DNA of 64,000 nucleotides, taken from the NCBI GenBank assembly GCA_017792365.1, contig CP051229.1, positions 2,852,001-2,916,000 of the forward strand, in the 5' to 3' direction. Made by a program: the position numbers and the translations under genes. This document shows, piece after piece, positions 10,444 through 30,165 of the stretch. The stretch comes from Hyphomonas sp. (lineage in GTDB: Bacteria > Pseudomonadota > Alphaproteobacteria > Caulobacterales > Hyphomonadaceae). Each line of letters begins with the position of its first letter. Position 1 is the stretch's first letter. A model generated the notes under the pieces. The model worked only from the letters and a program-made list of their open reading frames with translations. It was not told where the DNA came from and made no database searches.

Positions 10444-10843
10444 CGAATTTATTGACACAATATCCAATACGCAATTGGTTAGTTTCCGCCGCGGCTGGCT
10501 GACGTTGCGTGGTCCAATTCGGCCCATTTCAGCTCGGCGGCCCGTGCGCCATTGCTTCGGACAGCGGCCTGCCCGCAGGAGACGCACCCTGCGGTGATTT
10601 TCGAACATGATTTGGGCGACGGGATAGGCCGTGGGCAGTCTATCCGTATCAGGCTTGCCGGTCAGTGAGGCGCTGAGCTACAAACCCTCACCGCCAAAGA
10701 CGGTGGAAGCGTAAGCGCCTGATCCGATGCAGGATGGTGCGGCCTCAATCGCCGCAAGGCGCCTCACGCAGCTCACACAGCAATCCATCAACAATCCGGT
10801 CGTGCGCGTCGATGAATGCGCACGCGTTCTGAGGCGTATTCAC
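10444..10843. other. Intergenic region between oxidoreductase operon and porin-nasT-nasS
   Basis: About 400 bp between divergent transcription units, without a convincing gene. It holds a short dyad, CCAAT-N5-ATTGG at 10464-10478, in a locally AT-rich stretch that may be a promoter or operator for the leftward operon. It also holds the hairpin-rich leader of the porin gene, annotated separately at 10619-10706. Short open frames on both strands have no Shine-Dalgarno sequence and odd composition, and were not called. Confidence 0.5.
10619..10706 (+). promoter_or_regulatory. Candidate ANTAR-responsive leader RNA upstream of porin-nasT-nasS
   Basis: Three consecutive helices can form. The first is ACGGGATAG/CTATCCGT (10619-10647) with one bulge. 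The second is GTGAGG/CCTCAC (10665-10670 and 10686-10691). The third is CCGCC/GGTGG (10691-10695 and 10702-10706, with one G-U pair) closing a six-base loop AAAGAC. ANTAR-domain proteins such as NasT bind hairpins with hexanucleotide loops having A at position 1 and G at position 4, and this loop matches. The downstream operon encodes NasT itself. A second matching hexaloop hairpin, expected for a full ANTAR site, is not evident, so the call is tentative. Confidence 0.4.
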
Positions 10844-12078
10844 ATGACACTGATCAGAAATCTCCAGGGCTGTTTGCTATTGGCGCCGCTGGCCGCCATG
10901 GCGCTGGCGCCGGCCTATGCGCAGGATTCAGGGCGGGCGAGCTCGATATCCGAAGCGCTTGCGGCGTCGAAACCGATCTTCGCCTTGCGACTGAGGTATG
11001 AGGGCGTCGCGCAGGACGGCCTGGCAAATGACGCTGACGCCGTGACCTGGCGCGCGCGTGCGGGGCTCGAGACGGGAACGTGGAAGGACACCAGCTTCCT
11101 GATCGACTTCGACCTCATCGAGGATCTGGTGGACGACTTCAATTCCACCATCAACGGCAAGACCGCCTATCCGGTGGTTCCCGATCCGAGCACAGCCGAA
11201 CTCAACCGGCTGCAGATCACCAATACGTCGATCCCGGACACCAGGCTGACGATCGGACGCCAGCGGATCATCTTGGATGATGCGCGTTTTGTCGGGAATG
11301 TCGGCTGGCGCCAGAACGAACAGACGTTCGACGCCGTGCGCGCGATAAACTCCAGCCTTGGCGACCTCGTCATCGACGTCGCCTACGTCGCGCAGGTGAA
11401 CCGCATCTTCGGTGAGGACTCGGCGCAGGGCCGGTTCACAGGCGACAGCTATCTGGTGAATATCAGCCGCCCGACGCCGATCGGCAGGGTGACCGGGTTC
11501 GCCTATCTCGTCGATGTCGAAGAGGGCGGCGGCGCCAATTCATCACAGACCTATGGCGTGCGGCTGGCCGGCGACACGCCGCTTGGCGGCGGCAAGCTCG
11601 CCTATGTCGGATCCTACGCAACCCAGTCCGACTATGGCTCCAGCAATCTTGCCTATGAGGCGCCCTACTATCTGGCTTCTGCGACCTACTCGCAGGCAGG
11701 ATTCAGCTTCGGGCTCGGCTACGAAGTGCTTGGCGGCGACACGGCGCGGGGATTTTCGACGCCGCTGGCGACCCTGCACGCTTATCAGGGCTGGGCTGAC
11801 AAATTTTTGGGCACTCCGGCGGCCGGGATCGAGGACCTCTATGGTTCCGCTGGCTACACGTTCGGGGATGTCGGACCACTAAAGGGTCTGAAGCTGACGG
11901 CCATATATCACGACTTCAGCGCGGAAACGCTCAGCCAGGACTATGGGACGGAATTGGATCGGCGCTGACAGCCGTGTTCAAGGCGGTCGAGATCGGACTG
12001 AAGTACGCAGATTATGACGCGGACACATTTGCAACAGCCACGTCCAAGATCTGGTTCTCCATCGACTACGCGCTCTGA
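10844..12078 (+). CDS. Outer membrane porin (alginate-export/nitrate-porin-like beta-barrel), one frameshift
   Basis: Beta-barrel outer membrane protein of about 411 residues. The ATG at 10844 is chosen because it gives a clean signal peptide (MTLIRNLQG..., cleavage after AYA-QD). Alternating beta-strand sequence follows. The frame stops at 11968 after 'YGTELDRR', but restoring one base near 11960 gives 'ELDAALTAVFKAVEIGLKYADYDAD' and a terminal strand ending SIDYAL at 12078. It is therefore treated as a complete gene with a one-base loss. It lies directly upstream of nasT and nasS, so it may serve nitrate or nitrite entry across the outer membrane. The porin class is assigned by general pattern only. 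Confidence 0.8.
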
Positions 12079-12088
12079 TGGTGCGGGT

Positions 12089-12727
12089 ATGAGCGCTGCT
12101 GCGTCAGGACATGCGAAACCGGGCGCAGCCGCCCCGACGCTGGTGGTCCTGCTCGTCGATGATGAGCCGGAACGGGCCAAGATGATCGAACAGGGGCTGG
12201 CAGGCTGCGCGTTGCTGAAGCACACACCCAGCATTGGTGGGCCCGAACTGATCCGGATGATCGAGGACGTCAAACCCGATTGCATAATCATCGATTGCGA
12301 GAGTCCGGACCGCGACACGATCGAGAACCTGCGCACCGTGGCCCGGCACAACCCGAAGCCGATCGTGATGTTCGTCGAGGACGGGGACAGCGAGAAAGCG
12401 CGCGAGGCGGTGCGCGCGGGGGTGAGCGCCTACATCGTCGACGGCCTTTCCACGAGCCGCATAAAGCCGGTGATCGATGTCGCGATCGAACGCTTCCGGA
12501 TGGTCGATGCGCTTCACCGCGAACTCGCCAAGTCGCGGGAGGACCTGGCGGCGCGCAAGCTGATCGAGAAGGCGAAGGGCATCCTGATGGAAAAACGCAG
12601 CCTGAGCGAGGGCGCGGCCTATGAGGCGATCCGGTCGATGGCGATGAACCAGGGCAAGCAATTGCGGGACGTCGCGCAATCCATCATTTCGGTGAACAGC
12701 CTGCTGGAAGGAGGCGGGGAGAGTTGA
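12089..12727 (+). CDS. nasT: NasT-type ANTAR-domain antitermination regulator
   Basis: RNA-binding response regulator of 212 residues. The receiver-like domain (about 17-130) keeps D24/D25 and D69. A coiled linker follows, then a C-terminal ANTAR domain (about 150-205) with 'KLIEKAKGILMEKRSLSEGAAYEAIRSMAMN'. In known systems NasS sequesters NasT until nitrate or nitrite binds NasS; free NasT then binds leader hairpins and lets transcription proceed into nitrate assimilation genes. The ATG at 12089 lies 10 bp after the porin stop, and the stop overlaps the nasS start. The convergent operon at 14002-24574 is the obvious target. Confidence 0.93.
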   Translation: MSAAASGHAKPGAAAPTLVVLLVDDEPERAKMIEQGLAGCALLKHTPSIGGPELIRMIEDVKPDCIIIDCESPDRDTIENLRTVARHNPKPIVMFVEDGDSEKAREAVRAGVSAYIVDGLSTSRIKPVIDVAIERFRMVDALHRELAKSREDLAARKLIEKAKGILMEKRSLSEGAAYEAIRSMAMNQGKQLRDVAQSIISVNSLLEGGGES

Positions 12728-17753: not shown

Positions 17754-20195
17754 CTAGCTCGCCGGCTCGAGGACGCGGAACTCGTGCGCTTCGGCGCCGT
17801 CTGTGGCGCGGGCGGCCCACGGGTCGTTCTGCGCATCGCGCTGGGAGACGTCGAAGCGGGCGAGGAGTGCGCGGCGGTTGTCGAGGTCTTCGACGACCTT
17901 TTTGTGGGCGTGGTCGAGGCCGACGCGGTTTGCCCACTTGTAGATGCGTTCGAGGTAATAGCCTTCCTCGCGGTAGAGCTGGAGAAGGGCGGTGATCACT
18001 TCCATCGCTTCGTCTTCAGTTGCGACCTTAGTGAGGATTTCGGTGCCCTTGATGTCGAGGCCGGCGGCGCCAGCGAAGTGGACTTCGTAGCCGCTGTCCA
18101 CGCAGATGACGCCGATGTCCTTGCAGGTGGCTTCGGCGCAATTGCGCGGGCAGCCGGAGACGGCGAGCTTGACCTTGGCGGGCGTCCACGAGCCCCAGAG
18201 ATGGCGTTCGAGACGCATGCCCAGGCCGGTCGAGTCCTGTGTGCCGAAGCGGCACCAGTCGGAGCCGACGCAGGTCTTCACCGTGCGCAGCGCCTTGCCG
18301 TAGGCGTGACCGGAGACCATTCCGGCGGCGTTGAGGTCGGCCCACACGGCGGGAAGGTCTTCCTTCTTGACGCCGAGCATGTCGATGCGCTGACCGCCTG
18401 TGCATTTCACTGAGGGAATGCTGAACTTGTCGACGACATCGGCGATGGCGCGGAGTTCCTTGGCCGACGTCATGCCGCCCCACATGCGGGGGACGACAGA
18501 ATAGGTGCCATCCTTCTGGATGTTGGCGTGGACGCGTTCGTTGATGAAGCGCGATTGCTGGTCGTCGACGTATTCAGTCGGCCAGTCGCACAGCAGGTAG
18601 TAGTTGAGCGCAGGGCGGCATTTGGCGCAGCCGCATGAGGTTTTCCACTGCAGCTCCTGCATGACGGCGGGGATGGTCTTCAACTCCTTGGCCTTGATCA
18701 GGCGGCGGACATCGCCATGGCCGAGATCGGTGCAGGAACACATGCCCTTGGGCGCAGAGGCGTCGAAGGCGTCGCCGAGTTGCAGGGCGAGGAGTTGTTC
18801 GACGAGGCCGGTGCAGGTACCGCAGGAGGATGAGGCCTTGGTGTGGGCGCGGACGCCGTCGAGGTCGGTGAGGTTCTGATTGGCGATGGCGCCGCAGATC
18901 TTGCCCTTGGAGACGCCGTTGCAGCCGCAGATTTCCGCATCATCCGGCAAGGCTGCAACGGCCGCCATAGGGTCCAGGGGGGCGCCCCCGGCATAGGCCT
19001 GGCCGAAGATCAGGGTGTCGCGGGCGTCGGCGTCAATCGCCTCGCCGGACTTGATCAGGTTGAAGAAGTAGGCGCCGTCGGCCGTGTCGCCATACATGAC
19101 CGCGCCGATGAGGCGATTGTCTTCGAGGACAAGACGCTTGTAGACGCCGCGAGAGGCGTCGCGGAAGACGATGTCTTCGCGCGCATCGCCTTCCGCGAAA
19201 TCGCCGGCGGAGAAGAGGTCTACGCCGGTGACTTTCAGCTTGGTGGATGTCTGGGGGTGGATGAAGGCGCAGTCTGTCTCGCCGGCGAGGTGACGCCCAC
19301 AGACGCTGGCCATGTCGTAGAGCGGGGCGACGAGGCCATAGGTGTTGGATTCGAATTCGACACATTCGCCGACCGAGTAGATGTCGGGGTCAGAGGTCTG
19401 GAGCTGGGCGTTGACGAGGATGCCGCGGGCGCAGTCTAGGCCGGCCTGCTTGCCGAGTTCGCCGTTGGGACGGATGCCGACGGCCATGACGACGATGTCT
19501 GCGGGGAGTTTGGTTCCGTCTTCGAGGAGAACGCCGGTGACCTTGTCGTCGCCCAGTATCTCCTTGGTGTTGGCGCGCGTGATGACCTCGATGCCGCGCG
19601 CACGGATCGCCTTCTCAAGCAGGTAGCCGGCGGATTCATCGAGCTGGCGTTCCATCAGGGTCGGCATGAGGTGGAGGACGGTGACGTCCATGCCCTGCGC
19701 CTTCAGCCCGGCTGCGGCTTCAAGGCCGAGGAGTCCGCCGCCGATGACGACCGCCTTTCCCTTCGACTTGGCGGCCAGCAGCATTGCATCGACATCGTCT
19801 AGATCGCGGTAGGTGAGGACGCCGGCGAGCTTGTGGCCGGGCACGGGAATGATGAAGGGAACCGATCCGGTCGCGATGATGAGCTTGTCGTAGGGGGCGA
19901 CTTCGCCGTGTTCTGAGGTGACGGTCTTCGCTTCGCGATCGATCTCGGTGACCTTGTGGCCCTTGTAGAGCGTGACACCGTGATCGACGTACCAGCCGTC
20001 GCCATGGATGACGATTTCCTCGAACTGCTTTTCACCGGAGAGGACAGGCGAGAGCATGATGCGGTTGTAGTTCACGCGCGGTTCGGCGTTGAAGATGGTG
20101 ACGTCGTAGGCGTCGGGGGCGCGTTCGAAGAGCTCTTCCAACGCACGGCCTGGCGCCATGCCGTTGCCGATGACGACGAGTTTCTGCCGGCTCAT
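17754..20195 (-). CDS. nirB: Nitrite reductase (NADH) large subunit
   Basis: Sirohaem enzyme of 813 residues that reduces nitrite to ammonium with NADH. Order of parts: FAD- and NAD-binding domain (VVIGNGMAPGRALEEL; VVIGGGLLGLEAA), two BFD-like [2Fe-2S] domains (CGCNGVSKGKI...CGTC and MCSCTDLGHG...CGCAKC), then the ferredoxin-like and sirohaem domains with 'CVGSDWC' and 'GCPRNCAEATC' as [4Fe-4S]/sirohaem ligands. The ATG overlaps the stop of the ATPase gene. No sign of damage is seen, and the length is typical. Confidence 0.96.
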   Translation of the reverse strand: MSRQKLVVIGNGMAPGRALEELFERAPDAYDVTIFNAEPRVNYNRIMLSPVLSGEKQFEEIVIHGDGWYVDHGVTLYKGHKVTEIDREAKTVTSEHGEVAPYDKLIIATGSVPFIIPVPGHKLAGVLTYRDLDDVDAMLLAAKSKGKAVVIGGGLLGLEAAAGLKAQGMDVTVLHLMPTLMERQLDESAGYLLEKAIRARGIEVITRANTKEILGDDKVTGVLLEDGTKLPADIVVMAVGIRPNGELGKQAGLDCARGILVNAQLQTSDPDIYSVGECVEFESNTYGLVAPLYDMASVCGRHLAGETDCAFIHPQTSTKLKVTGVDLFSAGDFAEGDAREDIVFRDASRGVYKRLVLEDNRLIGAVMYGDTADGAYFFNLIKSGEAIDADARDTLIFGQAYAGGAPLDPMAAVAALPDDAEICGCNGVSKGKICGAIANQNLTDLDGVRAHTKASSSCGTCTGLVEQLLALQLGDAFDASAPKGMCSCTDLGHGDVRRLIKAKELKTIPAVMQELQWKTSCGCAKCRPALNYYLLCDWPTEYVDDQQSRFINERVHANIQKDGTYSVVPRMWGGMTSAKELRAIADVVDKFSIPSVKCTGGQRIDMLGVKKEDLPAVWADLNAAGMVSGHAYGKALRTVKTCVGSDWCRFGTQDSTGLGMRLERHLWGSWTPAKVKLAVSGCPRNCAEATCKDIGVICVDSGYEVHFAGAAGLDIKGTEILTKVATEDEAMEVITALLQLYREEGYYLERIYKWANRVGLDHAHKKVVEDLDNRRALLARFDVSQRDAQNDPWAARATDGAEAHEFRVLEPAS

Positions 20196-21895
20196 GCCGC
20201 TTCCTCCTCTTCGCTTTCGTCTTCTTCCGGGTGCGCGCCGCCCTCGTACTTCTCGAGGAAGGTGAGGAGCTTTTCGCGGTAGGCGTAATAATCTGGGTGT
20301 TCGAGGAGAGCTTGCCGCGAGCGCGGGTGCTCGATCTTCACGTCCATGATCTCGCCGATGCGGGCGTTGGGACCGTTGGTCATCATGATGACGCGGTCGG
20401 CGAGGAGAATCGCCTCGTCGACATCATGGGTGACGCAGATCGCGGTGACCTTGGTCTTCTGCCAGACCTCCATGAGGACTTCCTGCAGCTCCCATCGCGT
20501 GAGGCTGTCGAGCATGCCGAAGGGCTCGTCGAGGAGCAGAAGCTTTGGGTTGAGGGCGAAGGCGCGGGCGATGCCGACCCGCTGTTTCATGCCGTTGGAG
20601 AGGTCGGCAGCGCGGCGGTTCATCGAGTCGGCGAGGCCGACACGCTCGAGATAGTATTCGACGACGTCCTGGCGTTCGGCGCGGGTCGCGTCCGGATAGA
20701 CGCGGTCGACGCCGACGGCGACGTTTTCGAGGGCGGTGAGCCAGGGGAAGAGGGAGGGGGACTGGAAGACCACCGCGCGGTCGGGGCCGGCGGAGGAGAC
20801 TTCCTTGCGGTCCAGGATGATGCCGCCGGAGGAGACGTCGTTGAGGCCGGCGGCCATGGTCAGGAGCGTAGACTTGCCGCAGCCTGAGTGGCCGATGATC
20901 GAAACGAACTCGCCTTTGGCGATCTTGAGGTCGATGCCTTCGACCACGGTCAGCGGTCCCTTGGGAGTGGGGTAGACCTTGGCGACGTTCTCGAAACTGA
21001 GATAGCGCTCGCCGGCGTCGACGAGGGTTTCGCCGGCCTGCTGGTAGGCGCGGGGCGGGCGCTGGTGAATTGGGGTCACGTTTGGCAGCGTGCGGGCGAC
21101 TTCTTCGGTGTCGCCGCCGCGGGAGATGCCGACATCCATCAGGTAGGCGGTGATGTCGTGGCGAAGCCGCTTGAAGGTCTCATCGTGGTTCATTTCCGTG
21201 CGCTGGCGCGGACGGGGGATATCGACTCTGAAGGCCGGGCCCAGGGTGGCGTTGGGGCCGGGGTTCAGCGGGATGACGCGATCGGCCATGAGGATTGCTT
21301 CGTCGACATCGTTGGTGATGAGGACGACGGTCTTGCGATCTTCCGACCAGATCTGGGTGATCTCGTCCTGCAGCTTGGAGCGGGTGAGGGCGTCGAGGGC
21401 TGACAGTGGCTCGTCGAGAAGAAGGATCTTGGGATCCATCGCCAATGCTCGGGCGACGGAGACGCGCTGGCGCATGCCGCCTGAGAGCTCGGCGGGGCGG
21501 CGGTCGACGGCATGGCTGAGGCCGACCATGTCGACGTAACGCGCGGTGCGCGCCTTCTTCGAGGCGGCGTTCTCTTTCGGGAAGACGGCGTCGACAGCGA
21601 GGCGGACGTTTTTCTCGACGGTCAGCCAGGGGAAGAGCGAATAGCTCTGGAAGACGAGGCCGCGATCCGGGCTGGGGCCGGTGACGGGTTCGCCGCGGCA
21701 GATGACTTGGCCCTCGTCAGCCGTCTGAAGGCCGGCGATGAGGTTCATCAGCGTTGACTTTCCTGAGCCGGAAAAGCCGAGGATGGCGACGAACTCTCCG
21801 TCTTCGACCTGCAGGTTGATGTCGCGCAGAACGTCATTGCGCTCGTCGCCTTCGCCGAAGCCGATGGAGGCGTTGTTGAGCTCTAGGACTGACAT
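20192..21895 (-). CDS. Nitrate ABC importer, fused double ATPase (NrtC-NrtD type)
   Basis: Single protein of 567 residues with two complete ABC ATPase domains. Domain 1 has Walker A 'GFSGSGKST' (40-48), signature 'LSGGMRQR' and Walker B 'ILLLDEP'. Domain 2 has Walker A 'GHSGCGKST' (335-343), signature 'LSNGMKQR' and 'LLLLDEP'. Domain 1 has Asn where the switch His is expected ('LITNDVDEA'), while domain 2 keeps 'VTHDVDEA', so the two sites are unequal. In cyanobacteria NrtC and NrtD are separate proteins. The C-terminus is very acidic (EEDESEEEEAA). It powers the NrtB permease in the inner membrane. It lies between nrtB and nirB in the operon. Confidence 0.92.
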   Translation of the reverse strand: MSVLELNNASIGFGEGDERNDVLRDINLQVEDGEFVAILGFSGSGKSTLMNLIAGLQTADEGQVICRGEPVTGPSPDRGLVFQSYSLFPWLTVEKNVRLAVDAVFPKENAASKKARTARYVDMVGLSHAVDRRPAELSGGMRQRVSVARALAMDPKILLLDEPLSALDALTRSKLQDEITQIWSEDRKTVVLITNDVDEAILMADRVIPLNPGPNATLGPAFRVDIPRPRQRTEMNHDETFKRLRHDITAYLMDVGISRGGDTEEVARTLPNVTPIHQRPPRAYQQAGETLVDAGERYLSFENVAKVYPTPKGPLTVVEGIDLKIAKGEFVSIIGHSGCGKSTLLTMAAGLNDVSSGGIILDRKEVSSAGPDRAVVFQSPSLFPWLTALENVAVGVDRVYPDATRAERQDVVEYYLERVGLADSMNRRAADLSNGMKQRVGIARAFALNPKLLLLDEPFGMLDSLTRWELQEVLMEVWQKTKVTAICVTHDVDEAILLADRVIMMTNGPNARIGEIMDVKIEHPRSRQALLEHPDYYAYREKLLTFLEKYEGGAHPEEDESEEEEAA

Positions 21896-21905
21896 CTCGG
21901 CCTCC

Positions 21906-23057
21906 TCAGCGCGTGGCGGAGTGGGTGAACAGCGTCTGCAGGGCGAGCATGACGCGGTCGAGGGCGAAGCCGATCAGGCCGATCGTGAAGACGGCGACCA
22001 TGATGCGCGCGAGCGAGTCGGATGAGCCGTTCTGGAATTCGTCCCAGACGAATTTTCCAAGGCCGGGGTTCTGCGCGAGCATTTCCGCGGCGATCAGCAC
22101 CATCCAGCCAACACCCAGCGACAGGCGCATCCCGGTGAAGATCAGCGGCAAGGCCGACGGCAGGACCAGCTTGGTCACGCGCGTCATGGGCGGGAGGTTC
22201 AGGACGCGGCCGACATTGACGAGGTCCTTGTCGATCGAGGCGACGCCAAGCGCCGTGTTGATCAGCGTCGGCCACAGCGAGCAGAGCGTGACCGTAATCG
22301 CGGAGGTGAGGAAAGACTTGGAGATGCCGCTGTCGGTCGCAATGGTGGCCGAGACAATCATCGTGACGATGGGCAGCCAAGCGAGCGGCGATACTGGCTT
22401 GAAGATCTGGATGAGCGGGTTGAAGGCGGCGTTCATGGTCGCCGACATGCCGCAGAGAATTCCCAGCGGGACGGCCACGGCGGTCGCGATCAGGAAACCG
22501 AAGAAGACAGTCTGCAGGCTGGTCCAGATCTGCTGATAGTAGGTCGGCTTGCCGGTGTAGGCGCGCTCGCGGACTTCATCGCCGCGGGCGGCCTCGACCA
22601 GCGCCGCGTTGCGGGCCTCCTGGCGAGCCATGAACTCATTGCGTTTTTCAGTCTCGGTGAGGTGGTCGGCGTGGAGGACCTGCGCCTGCTCCCAGACTGC
22701 GGCGGGGCCCGGAATAGCGCCGAGCGAGGTGTTGACGCGCGGCGCAAGCTGACCCCAGGCGAACAGGAAGACGACGATCGCAAGCACTGGCACGCCGAGC
22801 TTCCGCCAGAGCTCTGCGCCCTGCTCGCGCGGGTTCTCGCCGGCCCCCATGCGCAGGATCGGCGTCACCCAGGCAAGGCCGACGACCTCGAAGAACGAGG
22901 ACGAGCTGCTGATGAAGCGGGTGAAGGCGCCCGGACCTTTAGGTTTGTCTGGCGTCGCCGCTGGTTCAGCCAGGGCGGCCGGCGTTGCGATGGAGGCTGT
23001 GTCTGTCGTCATATCGCTGTCCGCCGGGACGTCTTTCAGGATTGCTGTCGCGCTCAT
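21906..23057 (-). CDS. nrtB: Nitrate ABC transporter permease
   Basis: Inner membrane permease of 383 residues, BPD_transp_1 family. The first 130 residues form an extended N-terminus with Ala/Pro-rich sequence and one membrane segment ([16 protein letters not shown]). The core permease follows, with about six helices and the EAA-like loop '[45 protein letters not shown]'. The ATG at 23057 has 'GGAGAAACGG' upstream; the longer open frame to 23273 is not supported. It sits between the nitrate-binding lipoprotein and the fused ATPase. Confidence 0.92.
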
Positions 23058-23119
23058 TGCCGTTTCTCCGTGAGAAAGGGCGCGACGCTCATGAGGAGAT
23101 TGAGCGCCGCGCGAGTAGG

Positions 23120-24574
23120 TCAGTTGATGACGCCGCCGGCGCCGACCGTGTCGGTCGCCTTGAGGCCGATGGTCAGGCTTTCGAGGTAGGCGTTCGGCGT
23201 GCGGCCGTCGTAGACGACGCCGTCGATGATGTCCGTTTCCGGTGTTGCCGGCTTGTAGCCGTCCGTGTCCCACGGGAAGTCGGCTTCGCTGACGTGGCCC
23301 TCCTCGACCAGCATGCGGGCGGCCTCGAGATAGATGTCGGGGCGGTAGACGCTTTTCGCAGTTTCATCGAACCACGCATCGTCCTTCGCCTCGGAGATCT
23401 GGCCCCAGCGGCGCATTTGCGTGAGGTACCAGACCGCGTCCGAATAGTAGGGGTAGGTCGCGTTGTAGCGGAAGAATACGTTGAAATCGGGGACGTCGCG
23501 CTTGTCGCCCTTCTCGTACTCGAAGGTGCCGGTCATCGAGTTGGCGATTACTTCCGCGTCCGCGCCGACATATTCCGGCCGCGCGAGGATTTCGACGGCT
23601 TCGGGGCGGTTGGCGTTGTCGTTGGCGTCGAGCCATTCGGCGGCGCGAATGAGCGCCTTGGTGAGGGCGAGGGTGGTGTTGGGGTTGTCCTCCGCGAACT
23701 GGGCCGTGATCCCGAACACCTTTTCCGGATTGTTCTTCCAGATCTCGTAGTCGGTGATGACCGGCACGCCGATGCCTTTGAACACCGCCTGCTGGTTCCA
23801 AGGTTCGCCGACGCAATAGCCATAGATTGTGCCGGCCTCAAGGGTCGCGGGCATTTGCGGGGGCGGCGTGACGGAGAGCAGAACGTCAGCGTCGATCTGA
23901 CCCGACGTGTTGTCCGGGCTGTAGTATCCCGGATGGAGACCGCCAGCGGCGAGCCAGTAGCGCAGCTCGTAATTGTGCGTCGAAACGGGGAAGACCATCC
24001 CCATGTTGAACGGCTTGCCCTGCGCCTTGTAGTCGTCGACGACTGGCTTGAGGGCGGTAGCGGAGATGGGGTGAACCGGCTTGCCGTCCTCCTCCGGGAT
24101 GTGCGGCTTCATCTGGGCCCAGATGTCGTTCGAGACGGTGATGCCGTTGCCGTTCAGGTCCATCGAGAAAGGCGTGATGATGTGCGCTTCGGTGCCGAAT
24201 CCGATCGTCGCCGCCAGCGGCTGGCCAGCCAACATGTGGGCGCCGTCAAGCTCGCCATCGATGACGCGGTCCAGCAGGACTTTCCAGTTGGCCTGCGGTT
24301 CGAGCGTCACGTAGAGCCCCTCGTCCTCGAAGAAGCCCTTTTCGTAGGCGATCGCGAGCGGCGCCATGTCCGTCAGCTTGATGAAGCCGAAGGTGAGGTC
24401 GGTCTTTTCGAGGTCGAGCGTCGGAAGAGAGATGTCGACGTTCTGGGTTTCCGTTGTCGAGGCGGTTGGACCGCCGCAGGCGGCGATTGCCAGCGTGAGC
24501 GCGCCAACCGTGGCCGTCTGCAACGCTCGTAGGAAGCCTTTTGGCCGTGGTGGGGAAGTGTTGAAGTCCAGCAT
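23120..24574 (-). CDS. nrtA: Nitrate-binding lipoprotein of ABC importer
   Basis: Solute-binding protein of 484 residues. The ATG at 24574 gives a lipoprotein signal peptide with lipobox IAAC-GG near residue 33, so it should be anchored to the inner membrane facing the periplasm. The nitrate-binding family blocks are clear: '[13 protein letters not shown]', '[14 protein letters not shown]', '[19 protein letters not shown]', '[10 protein letters not shown]' and 'NNPEKVFGI'. It is the first gene of the assimilation operon and lies behind a structured leader at 24598-24665. An in-frame extension to 24769 runs through that leader and was rejected. Confidence 0.93.
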
Positions 24575-24900
24575 GGTGATCGCATCCGTTTGTCTGGACG
24601 CAACGAAGACAGCGCTTGCAAATGCGGACCGCAGGCGGGTCAGCCTCACAAACGCTTCGTTGCGTGAATTTCTAGGGGACGCGCCCGCCATTGAGCGCAG
24701 ATAGCCCGGACCCGACCCGGATCCGATTTCGCGGTCATACGCATCTCGCTGCGTAACGCAAGACGGCAAGGGACTTCAGATACTGTGAGACGCTTGATCG
24801 GCGCGAACTGGGCAGCCCTGCAGCAGGTTCGTGCACGTCGTGCTCAAACGTTGTGCGCTGGCTATGCGTCGGGCGTCGCTTGTCGAACGGCCTGTCGGGT
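24575..24900. other. Intergenic region with nas operon leader
   Basis: About 325 bp between the esterase stop and the nrtA start, both leftward. The part nearest nrtA holds the hairpin leader annotated at 24598-24665. Further upstream, 24738-24755 is a perfect six-pair helix (TACGCA/TGCGTA) closing a six-base loop, GCGAGA on the transcript strand; its loop does not fit the ANTAR rule. I see no gene, no T-tract terminator and no certain promoter in the rest. Confidence 0.5.
24598..24665 (-). promoter_or_regulatory. Candidate NasT (ANTAR) leader RNA of the nitrate assimilation operon
   Basis: Read on the minus strand, ACGC-AACGAA-GCGT (24665-24652) forms a hairpin whose six-base loop has A at 1 and G at 4, as ANTAR targets do. 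After a 5-base linker comes a second hexaloop hairpin, AGGC-TGACCC-GCCT (24646-24633); its loop does not fit the rule. An 11-bp inverted repeat, ACGCAACGAAG at 24665-24655 and CTTCGTTGCGT at 24608-24598 (as read on that strand), can instead pair across the region and would destroy the first hairpin. The long helix ends 23 bp before the nrtA start. This looks like a two-state switch under NasT control. No U-tract follows, so control could be translational or Rho-based. Confidence 0.55.
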
Positions 24901-25883
24901 TCAGCCGCCCCGCAGCTTGCCGCCGGGAGCCGATACGATCAGGCGGATGATTTCTTCGGTCACGCGTGGTTCGAGGCCTTCGGTGTGGCCCTTGTCGAGA
25001 CGAATGACGTCCGCGACGACGCGATCGCCATCGCAGCCTGGGAACTGGTAGACGTCGGTTGTACCGGGACCGGGCAAGCCGCCCCAGCCGGGCCGGTCCG
25101 GGCGTCCGGTTTCCGCTGTGCGGGTGTCCGATACTTTTCCGCCTTGAGAGTCCGTGATGATCGCCGTGCGGATTCGTGTGGCGCAGTTGTACCGGTCTGC
25201 AACGGGTGAGGTCGTCGGCACGCCTGCACGTCCCGAACTGTCGAGATCACCCGTGGTGAAGATGTAGGACATGTCGCAGCCAAGCGCGTCTTCGTAGCTT
25301 CCCTGACCCAGGCGCCCGCCGGCGATGCTCACCATGCCGTCGACCTTGTCCTGGAAGTACTCGCTGCAGATGATGCGGTGCGAGGTCAGCCCGCCTTGCG
25401 AGTGTCCCGCCAGCCAGACCGCCCGAATGTTGTCTCGGCCGAAGCCCGCCTCGACAATGTCCAGGATATTTCGCAGGTGCGCGTCGTCGGCTTCCTCGGT
25501 CCAGCGGCGAACAGGTTCTGCTGTTGCAGCTGTCGGCGTTGCGACGATGAGACGGTATTTGTCGACGTAGTCGCTCGCGGGAAATATTGTCTCTGCCAAC
25601 CTGATCGCGACCCGGCTCCATGAATGTTGAGGATGACGGTCAGGTCTTCGCCCGGCGCGATGTCGCATGGATATTCGAGGAAGAAGCTGCGCGCCGTTTC
25701 CGGATCGGTAGCGTTCCCGCCAAGCTCGGCCGCCGAAGCATCCGACACGCCACATGAAGCCCCCGCCACGTCCTGCGGGCCATCCTGTGCGGTTGCGGAA
25801 CCGAGATTGGCGCAGCCGATTGTCGCCAATGCGGCGATCGCGACGGGCGCCAGTTTCCAGATCGTGACCGGGTCTTTGATCAT
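24901..25883 (-). CDS. Exported esterase, polyhydroxybutyrate-depolymerase-like, one frameshift
   Basis: Alpha/beta hydrolase of about 327 residues with a lipoprotein-type signal (lipobox TIGC). The oxyanion region 'LNIHGAG' and the nucleophile elbow 'AGHSQGG' fit the PHB depolymerase/feruloyl esterase group. The frame from 25883 breaks near 25580, where 'WQRQYFP' should be followed by 'ASDYVDKYRLIVATP' in the next frame, so one base is missing in a ggg/aaa run. The gene starts 18 bp after the stop of the exported unknown protein and ends the leftward quinoprotein operon. It may release the alcohol or acid the quinoprotein oxidises; that is inference. Confidence 0.75.
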
Positions 25884-25901
25884 GGTGTTCTGCTCCTTGG
25901 C

Positions 25902-26957
25902 TTAGCTCGGTTTGCGGCCTTGTTCCCGGTCCGTCTGGCGCCCGCCGGCGAGGATGCCCTCGAGGCCGACATTGCCCTCATGGCAGGCGAATTCGAAGAT
26001 GCCGTTGGACGCCCAGAACTCGTATTCACCGCCCCATGGCTCGTCCCAGACGACCGGATCCTCGATCTCGAACTGGTAGAACAGCCGATTGTCGGCCACG
26101 CGCGTAAAGCGCTCGGTGACCTTCACATCGTCGGATGCGTTGAACATGAACTGCTCGGGGTGCAGGTCGATGGTTTCGACGACCAGTGTGTCGCCTTCAT
26201 ACCAGCCGATGGAGTCGCCGCCCCATTGGCGCACGCCGTCGTTGCGGTGCTCGGCGTTCAGCCGGATGATTTTCTGCTCCATCGTCATTTCGATCCAGAT
26301 CGCGACAGCGTCCTCGCCCTGGGTGATGCGGTAATTGTTGTTGTAGAGCGTGGGTCGCATCACGGGCGCTGCGGAGGTCGGAAAGAAGATGCAGCGCTCT
26401 GACAGGCCGCGCTCTTCCGGATTGTCGCGCGGGCCAGCCATTGGGTTGGACTCATCCAGCACGGCCTGCCGCGCGCGTGGAGGCAGCGGCGGTGCGCTCG
26501 ACTTGCGGTCGGGCACCCTTCCATTGGCGGGGTAGGTGATCATGGAAGAGCGCGGTTCGCCTGCAACACGCATCACCTGCGTGCCCGGATCGGTCCAGAA
26601 ACGATTGTAGCCAAGATTGGTGTTGCCATCCTCTGGCGCCCCGGCGTCCGGATCGGTGACGAAGTCGCCGGCGACGCGGTAGTCTTCGGCCGCACCTTGC
26701 ACGGCGCCGGCTTCCTCTTCAGTCAGCGCCAGACGGTCGCCAAAACGTACGGGACGCTCGAAGTCGGTGGTGGTGGCGTTGCTCCAGACGCCGGAGATGT
26801 CGGGCCGGCCGAAATTGTTGCGAGGCGCGACATAGCCTTCATAGACAGGCTTTGCGTAGGCGTCCTCGGCGTACTCATGAGGCTTGAACTCCTGAGCAGT
26901 CGCCATGGTCGCTGTCAGGGCCGCCATGCTGGCGGTCGAAAGGATACGTATCAGCAT
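25902..26957 (-). CDS. Exported protein of unknown function, paralogue of 30362-31375 product
   Basis: Protein of 351 residues. The ATG at 26957 has 'AAGGAAAGAAGG' upstream and gives a signal peptide (MLIRILSTAS..., cleavage after ATA-QE). The body begins 'NNFGRPDISGVWSNATTTDFERP' and ends with 'GDSIGWYEGDTLVVETIDLHPEQF', 'DVKVTERFTRVADNRLFYQFEIEDPVVWDEPW' and 'ACHEGNVGLEGIL'. This pattern is shared with its paralogue and, as far as I recall, with many unnamed periplasmic proteins of Acidobacteria and alphaproteobacteria. No catalytic motif is obvious. It is 18 bp downstream of the PQQ dehydrogenase and 18 bp upstream of the esterase, so all three are one operon. Confidence 0.85.
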   Translation of the reverse strand: MLIRILSTASMAALTATMATAQEFKPHEYAEDAYAKPVYEGYVAPRNNFGRPDISGVWSNATTTDFERPVRFGDRLALTEEEAGAVQGAAEDYRVAGDFVTDPDAGAPEDGNTNLGYNRFWTDPGTQVMRVAGEPRSSMITYPANGRVPDRKSSAPPLPPRARQAVLDESNPMAGPRDNPEERGLSERCIFFPTSAAPVMRPTLYNNNYRITQGEDAVAIWIEMTMEQKIIRLNAEHRNDGVRQWGGDSIGWYEGDTLVVETIDLHPEQFMFNASDDVKVTERFTRVADNRLFYQFEIEDPVVWDEPWGGEYEFWASNGIFEFACHEGNVGLEGILAGGRQTDREQGRKPS

Positions 26958-26975
26958 TGCCTTCTTTCCTTTCAA

Positions 26976-29306
26976 TCACTGTGATGCAGGCAGGCCGAGC
27001 GCGACATAGCGGCTGACCGCATCGATTTGCCCGGGCGTAAGGATGCCGTTCATCGGCGGCATCTCGGCGCTTCCATTGGCGACGATCGCCCGGATTTCGT
27101 CCAGCGAGGCCAACGCCTGCAGCGATGGCGCGCTGCCGCCCGGGACGCCCCTCCCGTCGCCGCCATGGCAGAGCGCGCATGACTGTGCGTAGGCCTGCCG
27201 GCCGGCGGCGAGCGCTTCGGCTGTCGCCGTGATGCCCGTCTTGTCGGTTGACCCCATCTCGACATCATCGGCGTTGGCTGGATCCGGCGCATCCGCTGCT
27301 GCTGCGGCGACTTCGCCTTCGCGCGGCAGTGCAAGGGCGACCAGCTCTGCCGGATAGCCGCGCTCCGAGAGCGCGACCACGATGTACTGGCGACCATCGT
27401 GCATGTAGGTCATTGGCGCGCCGGACGTCTTCGCAGGCAGTTCGATCTTCGCGACGATGTCGCCGGTCGCCTTGTCGTAAGCCCAGAACAGGTTGTCGCC
27501 GGGATCTCCGCCGATGTTTCCGGACGACGCCAGGAACATAAGCGATTTTGTGATGAGCGGGCTGGGGCGGACCGAGATCTGCCCCATCGAGTCGAAATCG
27601 AGATCGAGGCCCTGGAGTTCGGGAAGTTCGCGGACAAAGTCCGGCGCGCCGCCGATAGACCGCGACCACGCGTGCTCGCCGTCATTCATGTCGGTGGCCG
27701 TGACCAGCGCCCATGGCGGCTTGTTCACGGGCAGCCCGTTATCCAGCCGCAGCACGCCGCCGGAGACCGCGCGGTAGTCCCATTCATAGTCTTCCTGATT
27801 GGAAGGGGTCAGGCCCAGCGCCATGTAGGTGTTGCGTGTGGGAACGAACATCGTGTTCGTTTCAGGATCGACGGCGCCGCCATTCCAGTTCGATCCGCCA
27901 CCGTAATTCGGGTAGACGATCGTGCCCTTGTTGGTCTCTGAGATCAGCGTGGGCGGCATGTACATCTCTGGCGCCTTTGTATAGGCGGACAGGAATTCAG
28001 TGGCCTGCGCGTGAAGCTCTGGCGTAAGGTCCAGAACATCCTCTTCGTGAAAGCCGAGGTTCGCGTACGGCGCAGGTTTGGTCGGAAAGGGCTGTGTCTC
28101 CGAGAGTTGCTCGCCGGGGACCTGGAGCGCGGTGTTCACGGGGCGCTCTTCGATCGGCCAGACGGGCTCGCCGGTTTCGCGGTCGAAGACAAACGACATG
28201 CCCTGCTTGGTCAGCTGTGTGACCGCCTTGATGGTCTTACCGTCCTTCACGACGTCGTGCAGGATGGGCGCTGAGGGCAGGTCGTAATCCCACACGCCGT
28301 GATGCAGGATCTGGAAGTGCCAGACGCGCTCGCCGGTCGCGGCGTCGACGCACACCAGGGATTCGCCGAATAGGCCGTCGCCCGGACGGTCGCCAGCCCA
28401 GAAATTGTTGGTGGGGCTTTCGACGGGCAGGTAGACGTAACCGAGCTCCGGATCGGCCGCCATCATTGTCCAGACGCTGGCGGCGCCGAAATCATCCCAG
28501 CTGTCATTGCCCCACGTATCGTTGCCGAATTCGCCGGGGCGCGGGATCGTGTGGAAGGTCCAGAGCTTCTCGCCCGTGCGGACATCGAAACCGCGGACAT
28601 AGCCGGGCGTGCCGCCCTTCCGGCCGATCGTATCGTCGCCGATCATCTGGATCACGATCACGTCGCCGACCACGATGCCCGGCGCGGTCGAGTTCATGTC
28701 CTGCGGGTCAGCGGCGCGGGGATCGTCGGGCGGCAGGACGCCCTGGTTGAGATCGACCTGGCCGTTCTCGCCAAAAGCGGGATCTGCAAGCCCGGTCTTG
28801 GCGTCGACCGATATCAGGCGGCCGTCGATCGAGTTGAGGAGGAGCCGCTCCTCGGTTCCGTCTGTCCAATAGGAAACGGCGCGCGTAGATCCGGAGAAGC
28901 CCCGATCAATTTCCTTGCGGTAGGGGTCGGGTGTGAAGGTCCACTTGGTTGCGCCGGTGCCCGGGTCGATCGCGACGATCTGTGTGCCGCCGTCCGGAAT
29001 GTAGAGCGTCCCGTCCACGTAGAGGGGCGTGGCCTTCCAGTTGGAGTTCGGCCGGCCATCGACCTCAAGGCCGGGGCGCCGCCACACGACCTGCAGCTGG
29101 GCCGCATTGCTCGCGTCGATCTGGTCGAGCGGCGCATAACGCTGATTGCCAAGGTCGCCGCCCCAGGTGATCCAGTTTGGACCGTTCAGCGGCGCAGATT
29201 CTGCTTCCCCATTGGCAGTCGCCTGACCGGCGCCGTCCTGCATCTGTGAGCAGGATGCAAGCACGACAGCCGTCATGGCGGCCGACATCAGACCGAACAG
29301 GCGCAT
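26976..29306 (-). CDS. PQQ-dependent dehydrogenase with C-terminal cytochrome c domain (lipoprotein)
   Basis: Periplasmic quinoprotein of 776 residues. The ATG at 29306 has GGAGG upstream and gives a lipoprotein signal (lipobox LASC-S). The eight-bladed propeller is marked by repeated 'DPGTGATKW', 'DVRTGEKLW', 'DAATGERVW' and 'DRETGEPVW' tryptophan-docking motifs and by 'LHHGVWDYDLPSAPIL'. The C-terminus carries a haem site C710-ALCH with Met residues in 'EMPPM' as possible axial ligands. It resembles glucose/alcohol quinoprotein dehydrogenases that oxidise a substrate outside the cytoplasm and pass electrons to the respiratory chain. An 18-bp dyad at 29363-29380 lies 57 bp upstream. No pqq biosynthesis genes are in the window. 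The substrate is unknown. Confidence 0.9.
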   Translation of the reverse strand: MRLFGLMSAAMTAVVLASCSQMQDGAGQATANGEAESAPLNGPNWITWGGDLGNQRYAPLDQIDASNAAQLQVVWRRPGLEVDGRPNSNWKATPLYVDGTLYIPDGGTQIVAIDPGTGATKWTFTPDPYRKEIDRGFSGSTRAVSYWTDGTEERLLLNSIDGRLISVDAKTGLADPAFGENGQVDLNQGVLPPDDPRAADPQDMNSTAPGIVVGDVIVIQMIGDDTIGRKGGTPGYVRGFDVRTGEKLWTFHTIPRPGEFGNDTWGNDSWDDFGAASVWTMMAADPELGYVYLPVESPTNNFWAGDRPGDGLFGESLVCVDAATGERVWHFQILHHGVWDYDLPSAPILHDVVKDGKTIKAVTQLTKQGMSFVFDRETGEPVWPIEERPVNTALQVPGEQLSETQPFPTKPAPYANLGFHEEDVLDLTPELHAQATEFLSAYTKAPEMYMPPTLISETNKGTIVYPNYGGGSNWNGGAVDPETNTMFVPTRNTYMALGLTPSNQEDYEWDYRAVSGGVLRLDNGLPVNKPPWALVTATDMNDGEHAWSRSIGGAPDFVRELPELQGLDLDFDSMGQISVRPSPLITKSLMFLASSGNIGGDPGDNLFWAYDKATGDIVAKIELPAKTSGAPMTYMHDGRQYIVVALSERGYPAELVALALPREGEVAAAAADAPDPANADDVEMGSTDKTGITATAEALAAGRQAYAQSCALCHGGDGRGVPGGSAPSLQALASLDEIRAIVANGSAEMPPMNGILTPGQIDAVSRYVALGLPASQ

Positions 29307-29362
29307 TCGTTTCCTCCCCGAGTCGCGTAGCCGCATCGTTCGATGTGCGGCTTCTCCGCGTT

Positions 29363-29380
29363 GCAGTCCATGTGGACCGC
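29363..29380. promoter_or_regulatory. Candidate TetR operator in the PQQ dehydrogenase promoter
   Basis: GCAGTCCATGTGGACCGC is an 18-bp near-perfect dyad (GTCCA/TGGAC core) located 57-74 bp upstream of the quinoprotein start. 15 of 18 bases match the site at 30294-30311, and 'AAAT...TTGGC' also follows in both. The TetR gene lies between the two copies. Confidence 0.65.
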
Positions 29381-29463
29381 AAATAACCACCAAGTTGGCG
29401 GGCTTGTAAAGCGGGTTGTCGGAGGGAATCAGATCAGGCGGCGGACGGCCTTGGTCGGAAAGG

Positions 29464-30165
29464 CTATTTTTCGGCGTCGACGACAAGCGTTCCGGTGAGG
29501 ATGCGCTTGTAGTGTTCGAGCAAGGCCATGCACTCTTCCGCGCGGTCGGCGCGGCCGGAGAACAAGAGGTCTAGGACAAGGCCGCGCATGGCGGCGGCGT
29601 GAAGCGTGGTCATGGCTTCGACTTTGGCGCGATCTGTGATGCCCACGGACTGGGCCTGCTCCCAGACGGAGTCGCGCTGGTTGGCTTCGAAGGCTTCGAT
29701 CACCGCGGGGAACCGGACTGCGAGATCCGGATCGCTGCGAGATCCCATCATGATTTCGAGGAGTGCGATCGCCGCGGGCTGTTGCATCGCGGTCCACGTT
29801 GCGCCGGTAATCGAGAGATAGCGGTCCATTCCGGGCGTCGTATCGGCCAGTTCGCGCCGGACGGTGCGGTTCTGCTTGTCGGCGGCGTACTCGGCGACGG
29901 CGATCATCAGGTCGCACTTCGTGGGGAAGTGATGAAGCATCGCGCCGCGGCTGACGCCGGCTTCGTCGGTGACGGCCTGAAGGGTGGTCGAGGTGTAGCC
30001 GAGGCGCCCCAGACAGGCGATCGCGGCGCTGATCAGCCGCTTGCGCATGGCCGCCGTCCGCTCGGCGTGGGGGCCGCGGGTGGCCGGCTCGGGGGCGGGG
30101 GAAGGGGAGGTCTGGGGTTCGCTGGTCTTCATGCTGCTCGGGGTCCAGGCGTCGGTTTGCGTCAT
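29464..30165 (-). CDS. TetR/AcrR-family transcriptional regulator
   Basis: Repressor-type protein of 233 residues from the ATG at 30165; an internal ATG at 30132 is an alternative. After a Pro/Ser-rich N-terminal tail comes the helix-turn-helix 'TTLQAVTDEAGVSRGAMLHHFPTKCDL' (about residues 58-84). The remaining helical ligand domain shows no recognised signature. It sits between two copies of an 18-bp dyad, one in front of the leftward quinoprotein operon and one in front of the rightward paralogue gene, and probably controls both. The nearest dyad is 129 bp upstream of its own start. The effector is unknown. Confidence 0.9.
   Translation of the reverse strand: MTQTDAWTPSSMKTSEPQTSPSPAPEPATRGPHAERTAAMRKRLISAAIACLGRLGYTSTTLQAVTDEAGVSRGAMLHHFPTKCDLMIAVAEYAADKQNRTVRRELADTTPGMDRYLSITGATWTAMQQPAAIALLEIMMGSRSDPDLAVRFPAVIEAFEANQRDSVWEQAQSVGITDRAKVEAMTTLHAAAMRGLVLDLLFSGRADRAEECMALLEHYKRILTGTLVVDAEK

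Follow-up and report, generated by a model that had tools for sequence, protein, structure and literature searches.

A putative NasT-dependent ANTAR leader without a U-run upstream of nrtA in Hyphomonas sp.

Main finding

We analyzed a window of 64,000 nucleotides from the Hyphomonas sp. genome, which is 3.40 Mb in one contig. The nitrate operon on its minus strand (nrtABCD-nirBD-nasA) has a leader that we judge somewhat likely to be an ANTAR leader under the control of NasT, in which NasT freed by nitrate blocks a long hairpin and termination is the likeliest output. The leader is probably a known type of nitrate switch with an unusual off-state. Two hexaloop hairpins, the exclusion of the second by the long hairpin, the chance level of the arrangement, the architecture of related leaders and the neighboring nasS and nasT were all computed.

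Architecture of the nrtA leader

The leader contains the following parts.

24680 to 24699, minus strand: HPa, the first ANTAR hexaloop hairpin, TGCGCTC-AATGGC-GGGCGCG; loop 24692 to 24687
24666 to 24679, minus strand: linker TCCCCTAGAAATTC, 14 nt, separating HPa and HPb
24652 to 24665, minus strand: HPb, the second ANTAR hexaloop hairpin, ACGC-AACGAA-GCGT; loop 24661 to 24656
24633 to 24646, minus strand: hairpin AGGC-TGACCC-GCCT, at the position of HPc in relatives; loop without A1 and G4
24598 to 24665, minus strand: competing long hairpin; outer arms 24665 to 24655 and 24608 to 24598, inner stem end at 24612
24602 to 24611, minus strand: imperfect U-rich stretch TGTCTTCGTT after the inner stem, a candidate termination point
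24579 to 24604, minus strand: alternative hairpin over the ribosome site, -11.5 kcal/mol, possible when the competing hairpin is open

ANTAR-target loops have six bases with A1 and G4 (PMC3369931), a C:G closing pair (PMC7496416) and a linker of 2 to 25 nt (PMC8164766). HPa and HPb follow these published rules, linker length included. Both loops (AATGGC and AACGAA) have six bases, A1, G4 and a C:G closing pair. The arms of HPb are ACGC (24665 to 24662) and GCGT (24655 to 24652). AATTC-like linkers, similar to TCCCCTAGAAATTC, occur in some relatives.

The earlier note had described ACGC-AACGAA-GCGT as an ANTAR-type hairpin, and it is present with the loop bases and closing pair expected. It had been taken for the first hairpin of the pair. 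It is the second; the first, at 24699 to 24680, had been overlooked. The proposed partner, AGGC-TGACCC-GCCT, exists as a sequence, but its loop carries U1 and C4 in place of A1 and G4. Two other candidates were rejected by eye. TACGCA-GCGAGA-TGCGTA, further upstream, would be a first hairpin with A at loop position 4, and GACC-CGCCTGC-GGTC would be a second hairpin with a loop of seven bases.

Minus-strand positions 24608 to 24598 read CTTCGTTGCGT, 11 nt fully complementary to ACGCAACGAAG. The long hairpin is followed by CCAGACAAAC, without a U-run, and 24 nt separate its end from the nrtA ATG. The statement that there is no U-tract holds for the helix end. The stretch after the inner stem, TGTCTTCGTT, has 6 T in 10 nt. 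Its T-score is equalled by 1.6% of minus-strand positions in the window. A terminator scan of the leader gave no terminator-like site. Promoter scans for sigma-70 and sigma-54 gave nothing convincing; the promoter-like pair nearest upstream of HPa, at 24761 to 24733, matches at 7 of 12 positions. A search of 20,000 to 30,000 against Rfam at E up to 10 returned two matches, both under the family gathering score. The nrtA frame is open across the entire leader (24575 to 24769, minus strand), with an ATG at 24691 inside the HPa loop.

Nitrate operon and NasS-NasT pair

The operon encodes, in order, nrtA, nrtB, nrtCD, nirB, nirD, nasA and a tetrapyrrole methylase. The genes that matter for the leader are these.

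23120 to 24574, minus strand: nrtA, nitrate-binding lipoprotein, first gene of the operon; start at 24574
12014 to 12727, plus strand: nasT, receiver and ANTAR domains; sole ANTAR match of the genome
12724 to 13995, plus strand: nasS, NMT1-like nitrate sensor, adjoining nasT

NasT and NasS are encoded beside the nitrate operon, on the opposite strand. They have the features of a NasS-NasT pair, with a receiver and ANTAR domain in NasT, an NMT1-type NasS and adjacent genes. A genome-wide search for ANTAR domains gave one match, this NasT, so the regulator that had been named from the letters alone is the fitting one.

Two further frames lie nearby. Upstream of the nitrate operon, 26976 to 29486 (minus strand) encodes a PQQ-dependent dehydrogenase with a fused cytochrome c domain. 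Just upstream of nasT, an open frame at 10727 to 11968 (plus strand) has a Pfam match to alginate export proteins that is weak and lies below the cut-off. Its product is possibly an outer-membrane porin.

Fold stability and two states

The 68 nt from 24665 to 24598 fold with -34.4 kcal/mol, and shuffled versions average -21.6 (z -4.81; 0 of 200 as good). The wider leader of 146 nt has a z of -2.24, with 3 of 200 shuffles as good. The stretch of HPa and HPb alone is not more stable than its shuffles (z 0.29).

Folding of partial transcripts makes HPb and the long hairpin mutually exclusive. In RNA ending at 24652, the predicted pairing is at least 0.976 for HPa and at least 0.984 for HPb with three assumed starts. 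Other folds are predicted to compete in transcripts of intermediate length. When the RNA ends at 24598, the long hairpin is predicted at 0.999, HPb at 0.000 and HPa at 0.98. This supports the claim that the 11-bp repeat at 24608 to 24598 can unmake the hexaloop hairpin. In RNA reaching 24575 or 24540, predicted HPa pairing drops to 0.01 to 0.39 because the ribosome-site region pairs elsewhere. With HPa and HPb forced, the leader to 24575 has -42.4 kcal/mol versus -53.5, a cost of about 11 kcal/mol. A protein would have to pay for it or act during RNA synthesis.

Chance level

We wrote a composite rule of two A1/G4 hexaloop hairpins, each with at least 4 Watson-Crick pairs, and a competing helix. 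The helix is contiguous, has at least 8 Watson-Crick pairs and overlaps the second hexaloop hairpin. The rule is strict and post hoc, as it was written after sight of the window leader and its relatives. It occurs once in the window with both strands scanned, at the nrtA leader. It was found in 2 of 20,000 dinucleotide-shuffled leaders, and in 0 of 20,000 with at least 11 pairs.

The composite is present in 14 of the 80 named nrtA leaders. It has no occurrence on either strand of the 673,094 bases downstream of those leaders, and its A1/A1 form has none in 21 further loci (L139 to L159; 708,432 bases). With A or G allowed at base 1 and helices of at least 7 pairs, it is present in 4 of 11 Hyphomonadaceae leaders.

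Leaders of related genomes

NrtA matches with E of at most 1e-60 were retrieved from 13 of the 105 family genomes. Twelve of these, the window genome included, are nrtA orthologues (E 5.2e-212 or better), and the match in G005 is NasS. One orthologue (L013, G080:C27) contains a TAA inside the match, which is either a pseudogene or a sequencing error.

Alignment A5 contains six leaders from the family and three named ones, and the window leader lies outside it. L003, L004, L006 and L099 were left out because they were misaligned, the first three by MAFFT. L011 and L012 were left out as near-identical to L010. Among 18 other leaders with the A-or-G composite, only L032, L092 and L085 were taken. 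The hairpins of the A5 relatives are paired in 81 of 81 cells, and both sides have changed in 6 of 9 pairs. Of five measures, four were matched in none of 500 shuffles and one in 8 of 500. Controls slid along the alignment had at most 60.5% of cells paired.

A second search covered 77 leaders. L026, L087 and L100, duplicates of family genomes, are excluded from these counts, while the composite count used 80. Its anchors were an A1/G4 loop and a helix with a T-rich tail at its end. They were found in 52 of the 77, where the stem of the hexaloop overlapped by the terminator pairs in 201 of 208 cells; permutations average 178, and none of 2,000 reaches the observed count. The proposed check of covariation in both pairings thus came out positive for the hexaloop hairpins of relatives, in A5 and here; these results concern hexaloop stems, and the helix of 24665 to 24655 with 24608 to 24598 lies outside them.

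Anchoring was repeated with loop bases unconstrained and the stem and C:G closing pair required. HPc was then anchored in 48 of the 77 leaders; all 48 have G4 and 47 have A1. It also gave 25 hexaloops in the HPa range, of which 25 have G4 and 23 have A1. When base 1 could be A or G and G4 was required, the 52 leaders contained HPa in 33, HPb in 18 and both in 12, against shuffled means of 0.43, 0.27 and 0.003.

Many nrtA leaders of the Rhodobacterales type (L027 to L105) have three hexaloop hairpins, not two. By the strict rule these number 12 of 52. The extra hairpins lie about 36 to 70 nt upstream of the last hexaloop hairpin. In the 12 leaders with HPa and HPb, the spacing is 20 to 34 from HPa to HPb and 18 to 29 from HPb to HPc; the corresponding values in the window are 31 and 19. 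The accessible parts of the ANTAR and NasT papers on which we drew (PMC3369931, PMC8934654, PMC7496416, PMC8164766, PMC3795266, PMC5424462 and PMC6759348) describe two-hairpin targets, and a three-hairpin nrtA leader, a G1 loop or a Gln172 variant was not found in them.

A covariance model built from A5 (R1) gave the window leader 6.0 bits (E 9.4), which places it 64th of 69 in the window. In the whole-genome search, where 150 of 1,019 candidates were scored, the window leader is absent from the 13 matches. R1 is our own test and not a published family definition. In our judgment it lacks power, being a small model in which seven of nine sequences carry G1 in loop 1; its low score nevertheless stands.

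In G098, G092 and G090, which belong to another genus of the family, HPa has A1/G4 and a middle hairpin has the loop CCGGAT. Their leaders have U-poor ends (TTTT in G090) and lie 23 to 26 nt from the ATG. U-poor leaders near a start codon therefore recur.

G098: leader L149, before ATG 2524, minus strand
G092: leader L156, before ATG 10493; first gene an MFS transporter
G090: leader L159, before ATG 10251

In G098, HPa has 10 nt of complementarity to the last hairpin.

Of 12 further loci fetched, 9 have a NasT-like gene with no nasS or nas genes detected nearby. The NasT closest to that of the window among 29 other class-level loci read is that of G530 (62%). Its gene sits by the same operon, and the leader has one clear A1/G4 hexaloop with a C:G closing pair; the scan of this leader gave no competing helix.

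NasT residues and the first loop base

In the structure of EutV bound to RNA, Tyr164 is the residue on which G4 stacks, and Met172 acts as a plug in the loop; the conserved A1 has no specific contact, and Met172 is called obligatory for RNA binding (PMC8934654). We matched the numbering of the EutV chain ourselves. In an alignment to this chain, the window NasT keeps 9 of 11 named RNA-contact residues, including Tyr164 and Met172. R175 and R177 of EutV differ.

NasT was readable at 76 named loci. At the Tyr164 and Met172 places, 75 of these have Y/M and one has F/M. Met is present at 172 in 29 of 29 other class-level loci read (30 of 55 places are given as loci). In the Hyphomonadaceae, ten NasT proteins have Phe and Gln at the Tyr164 and Met172 places (L015 to L017 and L019 to L025). 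Y/M proteins in the family are those of the window genome (G000), G005 and eight further NasT-like proteins.

The 11 leaders of the F/Q group (L003 to L013), read by eye, have G1 and G4 in both loops. For one member, G080, only a distant NasT match was retrieved. The window genome, in the same family, combines Met172 with A1. G1 loops also turn up now and then with M172. A1 loops are expected in G005 because its NasT is Y/M, and near its operon the hexaloops AATGGC (twice) and GATGGC (once) are found, with no clear hexaloop pair and competing helix there. The association of Gln172 with G1 may reflect a single evolutionary change, and we treat it as a lead, not as statistics.

Comparison with known systems

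The nasA leader of Paracoccus denitrificans shares with the window a nitrate assimilation operon, NasS-NasT and leader hairpins (PMC3795266, PMC5424462). NasT binding to leader RNA has been shown there (PMC3795266, PMC5424462), whereas in Hyphomonas it is predicted from sequence. The Paracoccus leader precedes another first gene; that of the window precedes nrtA, has its long hairpin on HPb and lacks a U-run. The eut leaders of Enterococcus faecalis, bound by EutV, likewise have two A1/G4 hexaloops of which the second is excluded by a competing hairpin (PMC3369931, PMC8934654). They respond to ethanolamine through phosphorylation and have classical U-tract terminators, of which the window leader has none. 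The nasF leader of Klebsiella oxytoca also has A1/G4 loops, C:G closing pairs and a nitrate operon, but NasR is a one-component NIT-ANTAR sensor and not a NasS-NasT pair (PMC7496416).

The Rhodobacterales-type nrtA leaders similarly have an HPa with A1/G4, hexaloops at similar spacing and a helix over a hexaloop. Their helix starts in HPc and ends in a U-run, a feature that the search required in the 52 leaders, whereas that of the window starts in HPb and ends in none. The Hyphomonadaceae leaders L003 to L013 belong to the same operon and family and have two G4 hexaloops. Their loops start with G and those of the window with A, and NasT is F/Q in ten of these genomes but Y/M in the window.

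Alternative explanations

The same RNA and regulator could act on translation with no termination involved, which we consider rather unlikely. Positions 24608 to 24596 would pair with HPb or with the ribosome site (24587 to 24579), and NasT would alter ribosome access to nrtA. The missing U-run and the end of the long hairpin 24 nt before the ATG fit this reading, as do the U-poor leaders at 23 to 26 nt from the ATG in three genomes of another family genus and the translation-acting ANTAR targets reported in actinobacteria (PMC8164766). However, with HPb folded, the ribosome-site hairpin (-11.5 kcal/mol) would make NasT a repressor, opposite to its reported role as an activator (PMC3795266), and the competing helix of most relatives ends in a U-run, albeit by construction of that search. 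A broader form of the idea, which we hold to be similarly doubtful, is an ANTAR switch near the start codon that is free of a U-run. Positions 24608 to 24596 would choose among HPb, the long hairpin and the ribosome-site hairpin, and NasT would control translation (perhaps with the opposite sign) or the access of Rho, so that the switch would not be one of classical intrinsic termination. G098, G092 and G090, with their U-poor leaders, would add further cases.

The leader might also be a decaying attenuator in an operon controlled otherwise, for example at the promoter, with the HPc loop bases and U-run lost. The HPc position without A1/G4, the lack of a U-run and the poor R1 score agree with decay, but the 11-bp pairing is kept without a mismatch, both loops retain A1/G4, the NasS-NasT pair is intact, and the composite with 11 pairs appeared in 0 of 20,000 shuffles; we regard decay as improbable. 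That the hairpins and repeat arose by chance and have no regulatory role is very improbable. The post hoc nature of the composite rule and the failure of R1 to find the site speak for chance, yet the composite is found in 2 of 20,000 shuffles and nowhere in 673,094 background bases, and the site lies directly before the expected target gene. An N-terminal extension of NrtA from the ATG at 24691, in the HPa loop, would place the hairpins in coding sequence, and the frame is indeed open from 24769 into nrtA. Orthologues, however, start near the 24574 position by eye, before a lipoprotein-type signal, and the 66 extra residues match no Pfam family. We give this explanation almost no credence.

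Proposed mechanism and implications

For the preferred reading, a NasT-controlled leader with termination as its output, we infer NasT binding, the response to nitrate and termination itself. Several results weigh against this reading: the low R1 score, the negative terminator and promoter scans, the missing U-run, the ordinary stability of HPa with HPb, the cost of about 11 kcal/mol for forcing both and the displacement of HPa predicted in longer RNA. HPa and HPb would fold first as the leader is transcribed. In the absence of nitrate, NasS would hold NasT. As 24612 to 24598 emerges, the RNA would refold, the long hairpin would take up HPb and expression would stop. In this off-state, transcription would most likely terminate prematurely, at the imperfect U-rich stretch. 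Termination is favored because the ribosome-site hairpin, which can form when the long hairpin is open, has the wrong sign for a translational activator. Nitrate splits the NasS-NasT complex in P. denitrificans (PMC3795266). With nitrate present in Hyphomonas, freed NasT would bind HPa and HPb and keep HPb folded. The long hairpin would then be blocked and the operon transcribed.

Within one family, Gln172 with G1 and Met172 with A1 offer a natural experiment on ANTAR recognition. The window leader is a candidate switch without the expected U-run, and it can show whether ANTAR control here always means intrinsic termination.
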